A stretch of 64,000 bases of DNA from Advenella incenata (lineage in GTDB: Bacteria; Pseudomonadota; Gammaproteobacteria; Burkholderiales; Burkholderiaceae_B): NCBI RefSeq assembly GCF_004217095.1, contig NZ_SHKO01000003.1, positions 496,001-560,000 of the forward strand. Direction: 5' to 3'. The notes under the pieces are model-generated. The model was given only the letters and a program-made list of their open reading frames with translations. It was not told where the DNA came from and made no database searches. The position numbers were made by a program, and so were the translations under genes. The first letter of the stretch is position 1, and the number at the start of each line of letters is the position of its first letter. Positions 7,421-17,545 of the stretch are shown here, in pieces.

Positions 7421-7840
7421 TCAGTAGCGGCTGCCTTCGGCGGCTGCAGTCACTGCATAGCTCTCGATCGTGTAGCGCATGCGTCGTCCGTCGATCTCCT
7501 GGCGAACCAGACGAAAGCCCGGTTCATGAGCGGGACGGTTGACGATGAATGACATGACCACGGACTCCACGGTATGAGTGGAGTCAAACGCTGTGACGCG
7601 AATATAGTGATTCGGGAAGGTATTGCGTGCCTGTTCGATCTCCTGCAATATGCCGGCGGCATCGCGCAGGTCGAACATGGGGTTGCCGAACATCTCCCAG
7701 AAAGTATTGCGCGGATGCGGATCATCGGTATATTCAATGCCGACCGCCCAGCCGTTATCCAGGCAATATTGCAACTGTTTGGTGATCTGTTCGTTGGTCA
7801 GATCAGGAAGAAACGAGAAGGTCCCTTGTGTAATTCGCAT
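7421..7840 (-). CDS. cbbS: RuBisCO small subunit, red type
   Basis: A 139-residue form I RuBisCO small subunit that caps the L8 core. The N-terminal motif (FSFLPDLT, then the region ending YTDDPHPRN) and the long C-terminal tail past VTAFDST are typical of red-type small subunits, whose C-terminal extension forms a beta-hairpin in the central pore. It lies 66 bases after cbbL. Its start is supported by an AGAGA-rich ribosome region before the ATG. Confidence 0.97.
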   Translation of the reverse strand: MRITQGTFSFLPDLTNEQITKQLQYCLDNGWAVGIEYTDDPHPRNTFWEMFGNPMFDLRDAAGILQEIEQARNTFPNHYIRVTAFDSTHTVESVVMSFIVNRPAHEPGFRLVRQEIDGRRMRYTIESYAVTAAAEGSRY

Positions 7841-7906
7841 GATGTTCTCTCTTGTCGTAAAGTGCTGTGGTCTTGGCCTGCCTGTGTGCTTATTGCCTCT
7901 GTGATT

Positions 7907-9370
7907 TCAGGCAACAGACGGCATGGGGGTGTAGTCAGACGTGTCGGTGGATTGGTAGTTGAAGGTCACTTCACCCCAGGTGTCCAGTGCCGCGCGCAAG
8001 GGGCCGCAGTGCTTTGCTGCATCCTTGAGAATTTGCGGGCCTTCTGCTGCAATGTTGCGCCCCTCGTTGCGCGCCAGCACCATTGATTCGAGTGCGACGC
8101 GATTGGCCACTGCGCCGGCCTGGATCCCATCAGGGTGGCCAATGGTGCCGCCGCCAAACTGCAGGATTGCGTCGTCGCCGAACAGGTCCAGAAGCTGGTG
8201 CATTTGCCCGGCGTGAATACCGCCGGAGGCCACCGGCAGTACCTTGCGCAAGGCCACCCAGTCCTGATCGAAGAAAATGCCGCGCGGCAGATCGGTCTGC
8301 GTGTAGGCATCGCGACATACGTTGTAGTATCCCTGCACGGTCATCGGGTCGCCTTCCAGTTTGCCCACTGCTGTTCCTGCATGAAGGTGATCCACGCCGG
8401 CCAGGCGCAGCCACTTGGCAATCACCCGGAAAGACACGCCGTGGTTTTTCTGCCGGGTGTAGGTGCCGTGACCGGCGCGATGCATATGCAAAATCATGTC
8501 GTTCTGACGACACCAGTGTGATATGGACTGGATCGCGGTCCAGCCGACCACCAGATCGACCATCACAATGACTGAACCCAGCTCTTTGGCGAACTCAGCG
8601 CGGCGGTACATCTCTTCCATGGTGCCTGCGGTAATGTTCAGGTAACTGCCCTTGACTTCGCCGGTTGCGGCCGATGCCTTGTTAACTGCATCCATCACAA
8701 ACAGAAAGCGGTCGCGCCAATGCATAAAAGGTTGAGAGTTGATGTTTTCATCATCCTTCATGAAATCCAGGCCACCCTTGAGTCCCTCGTATACCACGCG
8801 TCCATAATTGCGTCCGGACAGACCCAGCTTGGGTTTGGTGGTGGCACCCAGCAATGGGCGACCGAATTTATCCAGGCGTTCGCGCTCCACAATAATGCCC
8901 GTTGGCGGGCCGGCGAAGGTTTTCACATAGGCGGCGGGAAAACGCATATCTTCCAGCCGGGCAGCTTTGAGCGGTTTGAAACTGAACACGTTGCCGATGA
9001 TAGATGCCGTCACGTTTGTGATGGAGCCTTCTTCAAACAGAGAAAGGTCGTAGGCGATATAGCAGAAATATTGCCCTTCGTTATTGGGCACCGGATCGAC
9101 CCTGTATGCTTTGGCGCGGTACTTGTCGCAAGCGGTCAGCCTGTCGGTCCATACAACAGTCCAGGTTGCTGTTGATGATTCTCCGGCAACGGCGGCAGCC
9201 GCTTCGATGGGGTCAACGCCATCCTGTGGTGTGATGCGAAACACCGCGAGTATATCTGTGTCCGTAGGTTCGTAGTCGCCATCCCAATAGCCCATTTGGG
9301 CATATTTGAGTACACCGGCTGCATAGCGTTTTTTCTGATCCCTGATCTGGACGTTGCTGATATCGTTCAT
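7907..9370 (-). CDS. cbbL: RuBisCO large subunit, form IC (red type)
   Basis: A 487-residue catalytic subunit that carboxylates ribulose 1,5-bisphosphate. The TKPKLG active-site segment is at 178-183 (catalytic Lys179), the carbamylated lysine is Lys205 in the FMKDDE motif, and loop 6 reads GTAVGKLEG. Overall sequence matches the proteobacterial form IC type rather than the green (carboxysomal) type, consistent with the adjacent cbbX and absence of carboxysome genes. AGGAG seven bases before the ATG supports the start. It is the first gene of the operon, transcribed away from cbbR, with a TATAGT-like -10 box on the minus strand at 9437-9442. Confidence 0.98.
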
Positions 9371-9486
9371 TGTCTATCTCCTGAGTGCCTTGCATGATCA
9401 AGCCGGCAGGATGCTGCGTCTGACCGGTATGAACAAACTATACAAATGGTCATGCTTGAGGTCTAATAATAAATATCGAAGAAAAC

Positions 9487-9502
9487 ATAAGCACAGGCTT
9501 AT
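9487..9502. promoter_or_regulatory. Palindromic CbbR-type operator in cbbR-cbbL intergenic region
   Basis: A perfect inverted repeat ATAAGC-ACAG-GCTTAT lies 8 bases before the cbbR start and about 115 bases before cbbL. It contains TAA-N8-TTA, compatible with the TNA-N7/8-TNA pattern reported for CbbR sites. The position fits a site through which CbbR represses itself and activates the cbb operon. Assignment is inference from pattern and location. Confidence 0.6.
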
Positions 9503-15576: not shown

Positions 15577-15655
15577 ATTGAGTTTGTCCCAGATTTATCA
15601 TGCAGGCATTGCACATGCCGCCATGAATTTGTGTTTCTTTTGATACCTTGATATT

Positions 15656-15687
15656 GCAGGGTGAGCGGCGTGAACCGGCCACCCTGC
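15656..15687 (-). promoter_or_regulatory. Hairpin between xoxF and xoxG
   Basis: A perfect 8-bp stem, GCAGGGTG (15656-15663) and CACCCTGC (15680-15687), with an inner CGG/CCG pair set lies 10 bases beyond the xoxF stop. No T run follows on the minus strand, so it probably protects or partly attenuates the transcript rather than ending it. Confidence 0.5.
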
Positions 15688-15697
15688 ATGACGCTAT

Positions 15698-17545
15698 TTA
15701 TTGCGTTTTTGTGGTTTTTTCTGCCGCTGCGGTAGCGACATTGTCAGGCAATGCGAAGACCATCAGTGCACCGCCAAGTTCGGTGTATTTGGCCAGATCC
15801 TTGTAGCCGCCAACTGCACCCAGGCCGTCGGTAGACTTTTCAAGACCTGCTGCCAGACCAATGCCGGCCCAGCCGCCAATACCGGACAGTACGCCAACGT
15901 ATTGTTTGCCTTCGTATTTCCAGGTGGTGACGTTGCCAATCACGCCAGAAGGTGTTTTGAACTTCCACAGTTCTTTGCCGCTGGTGTCAACGGCTTTAAT
16001 ATAACCTTCAAGCGTACCGTAGAAAACCACATCACCGGCTGTGGCAAGGGCGCCGCTCCATACGGAGAATCGTTCAGGAATGCTCCACAGGATTTTGCCT
16101 TTGTCTGCATCCCAGGCAATGAAGTTACCCATGCCACCATGGCTGTTGGGGGTAGGGAACATGGACACAGTTGCACCAACGTACGGCTGACCAGCTACAT
16201 AATCAACTGCAAATGGTTCATAGTCCATGCAAACGTGGTTGGTGGGGACGTAGAATACGCCGGTTTTGGGTGAGAATGCAGCAGGTTGCTGATCCTTGGT
16301 ACCCAGTGCAGATGGACAAATGCCCTTGACGTTGACATCTTCACCACCTTTGGCGGGGCTATATTTGCTGTTGACAACAGGACGGCCGGACTTCATGTCG
16401 ATTTTGTCGGCCCAGTTGATGGTCGGATCGAATTTCTCGGCAACCAGCAATTCGCCTGATTCACGGTCAAGCGTATAGCCAAAACCGTTGCGGTCAAAGT
16501 GAACGAGCGCCTTGCGATCTTTGCCACCCACTTTGATATCGGCAAGGATATTTTCATTGACGCCGTCATAATCCCATTCGTCATGCGGTGTCATCTGGTA
16601 AACCCATTTGGCTACACCGGTATCCAGATCCCGTGCGATGATGGACATGGACCATTTGTTGTCGCCAGGGCGTTGCGATGGGTTCCAGGTGCCGGGGTTG
16701 CCGGTACCGTAGTACACCAGATTCAGGGCAGGATCATAACTGAACCAGCCCCAGGTGGTGCCGCCGCCAATTTTCCACTGATCGCCTTTCCAGGATTTGA
16801 TCGAGGAGTCTTTACCCACGGCAGCCATTTTGCCATCGGTCCAGGTCATGGTTTTTTCGGGATCAAACAACATTTCGTTGTCAGGGCCTGTCGAGTAGGC
16901 TTTCCAGGCTTCCTTGCCGTCTTTCAGGTTGTAGGCCAGCAGACGTCCCCGTACACCAAACTCACCACCGGAGATGCCGGTGATCACTTTATCCTTGAAT
17001 ATATGCGGCGCATTGGTATTGCTTTCACCGACTTTGAAGTCGCCGTTCTTGACCTTCCATACTTCCTTGCCGGTTTTGGCATCCAGGGCCACCATGGTGG
17101 TGTCATTCTGTTGCAGAATGATTTTGCCATCGCCGAATGCCAGGCCGCGATTAACCGTATCACAGCACATGATGGTAATCACGTTGGGATCCTGGGTAGG
17201 CTCATACTTCCAGAGCATACTCTGATCCTTCAGACTGATAGCGTACACCTTATTAGGAAAGGGGCTATGAACGTACATGACGTCCCCAATCACCAGTGGT
17301 CCACCCTCGTGTCCCCGCAGTACGCCGGTGGAGAAAGTCCAGGCCACCTGAAGGTTCTTTACGTTGTCCTTGTTGATCTGATCCAGTTTACTGTAGCGCT
17401 GGTTGGCAAAATCGCCTGCCTGAACCGCCCAGTTATCCGGGTTTTTCATAGCTTCCTGCAATTGTGGATCCGCCTGTGCCGAGCCAGTAAAGGCCAGCGC
17501 ACCTGCGACACATAGCATCTGTTTAAGGGTTATCTTAAAAGACAT
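15698..17545 (-). CDS. xoxF: Lanthanide-type PQQ methanol dehydrogenase XoxF
   Basis: A 615-residue periplasmic PQQ alcohol dehydrogenase with an eight-bladed propeller; signal peptide to Ala25. The HDEWDYDG segment at 321-328 carries the catalytic Asp325 plus the extra Asp327 that marks lanthanide-dependent XoxF; calcium MxaF enzymes have Ala there. Other metal ligands are predicted at Glu195 (GGEFGVRG) and Asn283 (GTGNPG). The vicinal disulfide Cys127-Cys128 is present. GGAGGAAGAC precedes the ATG. It oxidises methanol to formaldehyde or further to formate, passing electrons to XoxG. First gene of xoxF-xoxG-xoxJ-orf. Lanthanide use is inferred from Asp327. Confidence 0.95.

Follow-up and report, generated by a model that had tools for sequence, protein, structure and literature searches.

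A probable methylotrophic-autotrophy island in Advenella incenata with an exchangeable xox or mxa dehydrogenase cassette beside the RuBisCO operon

We analyzed a stretch of 64,000 bp from the genome of Advenella incenata (C3:496001-560000; hereafter, the window), in which the operon for ribulose-1,5-bisphosphate carboxylase/oxygenase (RuBisCO) and the operon of a lanthanide-type methanol dehydrogenase (MDH), XoxF, are neighbors. The genome (4.92 Mb, 10 contigs) is given as 100% complete. Comparison with related genomes makes it probable that both operons belong to an island for methylotrophic autotrophy, and that its dehydrogenase genes form an exchangeable cassette, with either a xox or an mxa operon at one and the same spot. 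The island measures about 28 kb from a sigma-54 activator gene to the small gene u2, and the larger part of it lies in the window. The features on which this reading depends are the following.

10459..19499, no strand: putative exchangeable lanthanide-MDH (xox) cassette, limits by comparison with genome G049; an mxa operon is found there in G045, G048 and G049.
15698..17545, minus strand: xoxF, lanthanide-type methanol dehydrogenase (TIGR03075 746.7 bits, cut-off 480), with Asp325/Asp327.
7907..9370, minus strand: cbbL, RuBisCO large subunit, form IC-like (NF003252 790 bits).
9511..10422, plus strand: cbbR, LysR-type regulator, divergent from cbbL (best family NF045990 CbbR with 270 bits, below its cut-off of 450).

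The distribution of the dehydrogenase was determined in a family sample of 229 genomes, each at least 90% complete. XoxF matches at E<=1e-180, a limit that MxaF genes pass as well, were detected in 12 of the 229, one match each, with Asp at the lanthanide position in six genomes and Ala in six. We looked for CbbL in 16 genomes, the 12 plus four other members of the genus, and found it in eight. Ten genomes of the genus were searched: six have CbbL, the same six have the dehydrogenase, and four gave no match for either.

These six island genomes share a common framework, with ctpS, sir2 and actP on one side of the cassette and cbbR, the cbb operon, frmA, gfa, a prolyl aminopeptidase gene, the pqq genes and the sigma-54 gene on the other. 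Between these flanks, the window's genome (G000), G044 and G047 carry the xox cassette, their XoxF proteins being 96-100% identical, while G045, G048 and G049 carry an mxa operon in which mxaF adjoins cbbR. The two forms differ at the lanthanide position of the dehydrogenase. XoxF of the window reads DEWDYDG, which aligns with DEWDFDG of XoxF1 (6oc5) and confirms the Asp325/Asp327 pair named in the original prediction; G045, G048 and G049 have DEWDYAG, in which Ala replaces the lanthanide Asp. XoxF1 is also the closest solved relative (6oc5/6oc6, 940 bits). Outside the genus, we collected 80 named loci with the closest XoxF relatives, mostly from Burkholderiales and with full flanks in 53 of the 80, and the extra lanthanide Asp (position 327) is present in all 80.

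The mxa cassettes were identified by their gene content. The cassette of G049 contains mxaJ (MoxJ 350 bits, cut-off 258) and mxaG (MoxG 187 bits, cut-off 147.8), as well as genes for a BatA-like VWA protein, a beta-propeller and an aak-like kinase. In G048 we found mxaI (PF02315 153 bits), VWA and DUF58 proteins, a Polyketide_cyc2 protein and again an aak-like kinase. The cassette of G045 is known as mxa from its DNA alignment to G048 and G049 (11.8 kb at 75-76%) and from the DEWDYAG motif. The dehydrogenase gene lies 6.3 kb from cbbL when the cassette is xox and 1.4 kb when it is mxa, and the left breakpoint is identical (window position 10458) in the three comparisons of G000 with an mxa genome. 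In the assembly of G044 (L095-L096), cbbL is spread over more than one frame, as are probably further genes; a sequencing error may be the cause.

The mxa operon is a system dedicated to methanol. That it occupies this very position, next to the same RuBisCO operon, is therefore independent evidence that the spot serves methanol oxidation and that the neighborhood of XoxF and RuBisCO is a working unit. An alternative, which we consider improbable, is that the two operons are neighbors by history only, with XoxF acting in a side oxidation of alcohols or formaldehyde and RuBisCO in another kind of autotrophy based on hydrogen, sulfur or formate. Two observations favor such a history and count against a working unit. 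Near xoxF, cbbL is rare outside the genus: it was found within the examined flanks of only four of the 80 named loci, one from Noviherbaspirillum suwonense (L013) and three from Variovorax (L068, L069, L075), with a different layout. Furthermore, in G180 and G182 xoxF is accompanied at short distance by gfa, frmA and pqq but no CbbL was found, so that the oxidation part exists without RuBisCO. Against mere history stand not only the three mxa operons with mxaF so close to cbbL, but also the four genus members without CbbL, in which the dehydrogenase search, despite being permissive for MxaF, likewise found nothing, and the location of gfa, frmA and pqq in the same island.

In the 80 named loci, the other island genes were detected with frmA (at least 60% identity) in 18, gfa in 16 and pqqC in eight. 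Many Paraburkholderia and Caballeronia loci have cbbR-like matches (about 40%) downstream of xox; these were rejected as a linkage to cbb, as no cbbL accompanies them in the examined flanks. A second genus of the family includes G180 and G182, described above, and also G179, which combines xoxF, cbb, frmA, gfa and pqq in one place. Its member G178 has an MxaF-type gene on another contig than its cbb-frmA-gfa island.

The history of the cassette was analyzed with trees of its flanks. The left flank tree was built from 13 concatenated genes (13,820 columns, outgroup G178 and G179) and the right flank tree from nine (14,730 columns, no outgroup). In both trees, G000, a xox genome, is sister to G049, an mxa genome, with a support of 100/100. 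Trees forced to group the genomes by dehydrogenase type were rejected, with p values in the approximately unbiased (AU) test of 2.1e-7 (left) and 2.2e-5 (right) when cbbR and actP were left out. Parsimony on the flank trees gave at least two cassette switches.

The mean flank divergence between G000 and G049 is 7.4% on the left and 7.6% on the right. At both junctions of the cassette, it is much lower.

9895..10423, no strand: putative left recombination tract, 2 differing bases in 529 bp, 0.38% versus G049.
20099..22083, no strand: putative right recombination tract, 1985 bp, 1.76% versus G049.

We scanned the divergence in steps of 25 bp with two window lengths, 529 bp (1872 windows) and 1985 bp (1675 windows), each window being at least 95% aligned in both comparisons. 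At the shorter length the minimum fell at the left junction, and at the longer length at the right junction; this holds for the divergence itself and for its ratio to the divergence between G000 and G044. Since G000 and G044 differ by 9.5% inside the left tract and by 8.6% inside the right one, the tract genes are not simply conserved. No similar dip at the junctions was seen in the three other xox/mxa pairs examined (G044-G049, G047-G049 and G000-G048; eight pairs exist). The low-divergence tracts at both junctions are probably the footprint of a recent homologous exchange.

Several points weigh against this interpretation. The scan windows overlap, and their lengths were picked after the tracts had been seen. 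A conserved region near 48630 is nearly as low (0.76%) by plain divergence, though not by the ratio; it is conserved in G044 as well (1.9-2.5%). On the right side, 246 bp (19853-20098) are 13% divergent, making this side a mosaic. Only one recent exchange event is visible, because cassettes of one type diverge like the flanks or somewhat more: identity between G000 and G044 is 89.0% in the cassette versus 89.2 and 89.9% in the flanks, and between G045 and G048 it is 75.2% versus 76.9 and 80.5% (in this comparison, only a partial anchor in cbbR was available for G044 against other genomes). In the search of the 229 genomes, at most five first-look candidates were scored per genome, so that a second methanol dehydrogenase is unlikely in the matching genomes.

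The same identities indicate that both cassette types are old in the genus, and a recent transfer within one cassette type, which we also considered, was not seen in them. The age of both types, together with the aak-like gene in both cassettes, would fit an ancestor that carried the two cassettes in tandem, followed by loss of one or the other in each lineage and without any exchange between species. We regard this as rather unlikely. It requires five or six separate losses (counted by hand on the flank trees), and no genome with both xox and mxa was seen among those searched. The shared left breakpoint at 10458 is a further argument against it, and it leaves the junction divergence minima in one sister pair unexplained.

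The most economical explanation is that the genus has kept both cassettes and that one of the sisters, G000 or G049, recently acquired the one it now carries from a near relative of its sister, in either direction. According to the trees and the divergence, a recent exchange would have occurred in the lineage of the window's genome or in that of G049. The spot between cbbR and the end of actP would hold either the lanthanide xox form or the calcium mxa form, exchanged by homologous recombination in the flanks. With somewhat more confidence than doubt, we propose that the dehydrogenase slot is a long-lived two-allele locus, similar to a serotype locus, at which mxa and xox are traded via the cbbR and actP flanks.

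The complete cbb operon spans 345-9370 and is read leftwards in the order cbbL, cbbS, cbbX, a HAD phosphatase gene, cbbF, prk, tkt and fba, with cbbR divergent. The original prediction placed it about 4 kb from a xoxF-xoxG-xoxJ-orf operon, in good agreement with the measured gap of 3.7 kb between the end of orf and cbbL and with the family matches listed for both operons.

7421..7840, minus strand: cbbS, RuBisCO small subunit (PF00101 132 bits).
6386..7354, minus strand: cbbX, RuBisCO activase (TIGR02880 513 bits, cut-off 459).
5620..6417, minus strand: HAD phosphatase, cbbY by position (HAD-IA families).
4483..5589, minus strand: cbbF, class 1 fructose-bisphosphatase (NF006779 503 bits, cut-off 349).
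3498..4472, minus strand: cbbP, phosphoribulokinase (NF011997 506 bits, cut-off 362); the mechanical open reading frame extends to 4721 and the family match starts at its residue 115.
1463..3490, minus strand: cbbT, transketolase (TIGR00232 907 bits, cut-off 682).
345..1400, minus strand: cbbA/fba, class II fructose-bisphosphate aldolase (TIGR01521 620 bits, cut-off 496).

CbbL is 84% identical to a CbbL of S. meliloti, and cbbX is present; on these two grounds we describe it as form IC-like. The RuBisCO of the XoxF/Calvin-Benson-Bassham (CBB) region of S. meliloti 2011 is described as type IC (PMC12628762).

The xoxF-xoxG-xoxJ-orf operon (13117-17545) lies entirely on the minus strand. The other genes of the cassette are listed here.

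14923..15576, minus strand: xoxG, cytochrome c, named by position (PF13442 39 bits).
13917..14855, minus strand: xoxJ (TIGR03871 265 bits, cut-off 212).
13117..13872, minus strand: orf, conserved protein downstream of xoxJ, present in 69 of the 80 named xoxF loci.
18800..19180, plus strand: u2, small protein associated with xox clusters (65 of the 80 named loci), four Cys invariant.
10683..11309, plus strand: aak, MfnE-like amino-acid kinase (NF040622 37 bits, cut-off 300; PF00696 25.5 bits, cut-off 24.9).
11471..12028, plus strand: cytochrome b561 (PF01292 117 bits).
12059..13006, plus strand: YVTN-type beta-propeller (TIGR02276 repeats; TIGR03866 213 bits).

The product of orf had no NCBIfam match at 1e-5 and no Pfam match above cut-off. 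Its predicted fold (pLDDT 86.5) resembles LprG (E 1.6e-4) and MucB (E 3.9e-4) with a template-modelling (TM) score of only about 0.3, too weak for naming. For u2, in which the four Cys are invariant across 30 aligned sequences, no Pfam or NCBIfam match was found, and a PDB search with its helical model (pLDDT 84) found nothing at E<=0.001. In the window, XoxJ and u2 both have an acidic C-terminal tail. These tails were considered as a possible lanthanide motif and rejected, as the homologues examined (the first 40 per list) do not share them. The genes between the operons had been called PQQ-linked (PQQ, pyrroloquinoline quinone). Genes for an amino-acid-kinase-like protein, cytochrome b561 and a beta-propeller are indeed located there, but they are only loosely linked to PQQ, the beta-propeller staying below the TIGR03866 cut-off of 287. 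On the far side of the cassette (22008-25100), a tRNA-Asn gene is followed by a stretch with a TerC/CorC-like gene (22966-24555), which had no match in the examined stretches of five syntenic relatives.

The remaining steps from methanol to CO2 were sought in the whole genome. Immediately to the left of the cbb operon, in stretch L094, lies frmA, whose frame ends 24 bp outside the window (TIGR02818 627 bits, cut-off 544), followed by gfa (TIGR02820 321 bits, cut-off 235), a prolyl-aminopeptidase-like gene, pqqB, pqqC, pqqD, pqqE and the sigma-54 activator gene. A PqqA-like peptide of 24 residues beside pqqB was recognized by eye. The gene for FrmB (432.5 bits, cut-off 281.7) is remote from the island, at C1:679369. 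C1 also carries the gene for the alpha subunit of an NAD-type formate dehydrogenase (TIGR01591 about 920 bits, cut-off 666), grouped with those for FdhD, a gamma subunit (NF004638 199.4 bits, cut-off 198) and a NuoF-like subunit. The expectation that the middle of the pathway lies elsewhere thus holds for frmB and the formate dehydrogenase, but not for frmA and gfa, which begin directly at the edge of the window. The genome search for glutathione-dependent formaldehyde genes and formate dehydrogenase, proposed at the outset, was therefore successful. With XoxF, frmA/gfa/frmB, formate dehydrogenase and cbb all found, the gene set is that of XoxF, the glutathione (GSH) pathway, formate dehydrogenase (FDH) and the Calvin cycle.

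XoxF enzymes with PQQ and a light lanthanide oxidize methanol to formaldehyde in the periplasm and pass the electrons to XoxG. The XoxF of the window would do the same; Gfa and FrmA, encoded just outside the window, together with FrmB would convert formaldehyde to formate, the NAD-linked formate dehydrogenase would yield NADH and CO2, and the cbb operon under CbbR would refix the CO2. We infer the flux, regulation and metal use of this pathway from the genes. The idea that methanol oxidation to CO2 and RuBisCO form a functional unit is thereby supported at the gene level, a route for formaldehyde and formate oxidation being present in the genome. Assimilation of methanol carbon via the serine or ribulose monophosphate (RuMP) cycle, with RuBisCO as an auxiliary, is very improbable. 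Formate-tetrahydrofolate ligase had no match in any of the six island genomes, in a search that did not extend to hps, phi, mtkA and mcl; in the window's genome, Fae and Mch, markers of the tetrahydromethanopterin (H4MPT) route, had no match, and a complete cbb operon is present.

Two further genes of the island touch on PQQ and regulation. All six island genomes, as well as four from the second genus, have the prolyl-aminopeptidase-like gene between pqq and gfa (L094 6721-7863), which could possibly encode a PqqA-trimming protease. Relatives of the sigma-54 activator beside pqqE (L094 1034-3250) occur in 20 of the 80 named xoxF loci, and it is therefore perhaps the regulator of the island.

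The H4MPT route was considered because of the MfnE-like gene aak, and was rejected, as neither Fae nor Mch nor MfnB was matched. The likeness of aak to MfnE of methylofuran synthesis is weak, and it fails the NCBIfam equivalog cut-off by far. Relatives (E<=1e-8) were found in seven of the 229 family genomes; all seven have a methanol dehydrogenase, both cassette types are represented, and MfnB had no match in any of the seven. The role of aak would accordingly seem tied to the methanol dehydrogenase and not to H4MPT. Its absence from five of the 12 dehydrogenase genomes (G053, G120, G179, G180 and G182) counts against a general role, and the copy in G178 has two in-frame stops. Relatives were also found in 26 plasmid records. 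On a plasmid of Aquabacterium olei, the relative adjoins genes for (5-formylfuran-3-yl)methyl phosphate synthase and a hydantoinase/oxoprolinase, and on a plasmid of Azoarcus sp. KH32C, it adjoins a hydantoinase/oxoprolinase gene.

The pathway itself is of a known kind. In Bradyrhizobium and Sinorhizobium, the XoxF-GSH-FDH-CBB pathway was shown by transcripts, enzyme assays, 13C labelling and cbbS deletion across strains, likewise with XoxF, GSH-linked formaldehyde oxidation, formate dehydrogenase and type IC RuBisCO (PMC12628762). As this pathway is already published, the original prediction was right in kind but not new. In S. meliloti 2011, the genes for XoxF, GSH, lanthanide uptake, CBB and PQQ are contained in one region of 28.5 kb (PMC12628762); we also viewed a similar region in strain Ak57. 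These organisms differ in being Alphaproteobacteria, in their gene order, with fghA inside the S. meliloti island, and in that the available text describes no exchange of an mxa operon (PMC12628762).

Sphaerotilus belongs to the Burkholderiales. It likewise combines XoxF5 and the Calvin cycle, but uses H4MPT and lacks gfa; mxaF was not found, only fragments of mxa accessory genes, and the accessible parts of the report describe no cassette exchange (PMC13300288). The two alternatives found at our locus are known from separate organisms: the Paracoccus denitrificans type has an MxaFI-like MDH with GSH, FDH and CBB, a calcium enzyme as in G045, G048 and G049, and the Rhodobacter sphaeroides type has the same pathway with XoxF, as in the window. 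These are other lineages, and exchange at one locus is not mentioned in the text available (PMC12997859). Pelagic Methylophilaceae retained the lanthanide enzyme XoxF4 in the absence of other methanol dehydrogenases; as far as the available texts describe it, this was gene loss by genome streamlining, without a Calvin cycle and without in-place exchange (PMC6794327, PMC8262872). No report of in-place mxa/xox exchange was found among the matches listed from the PMC literature, a scope that leaves out most subscription journals, and the accessible part of a study of the methanotroph lanthanome mentions neither recombination nor replacement nor synteny (PMC12482762). What is new here is that calcium and lanthanide dehydrogenases alternate in place beside RuBisCO, with an apparent footprint of recombination at the junctions.

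Our results suggest that the XoxF-GSH-FDH-CBB layout extends to a genus whose XoxF relatives are mostly Burkholderiales. If the proposed exchange is correct, a single step would be enough for a lineage to change the metal on which its methanol autotrophy depends, with the other parts of the pathway left as they are. These genomes bear on the question of what decides whether a methylotroph retains the calcium or the lanthanide enzyme. Since nearly matched sister genomes differ in the cassette and share the background of the pathway, they would allow a direct test of the costs and benefits that come with each metal.

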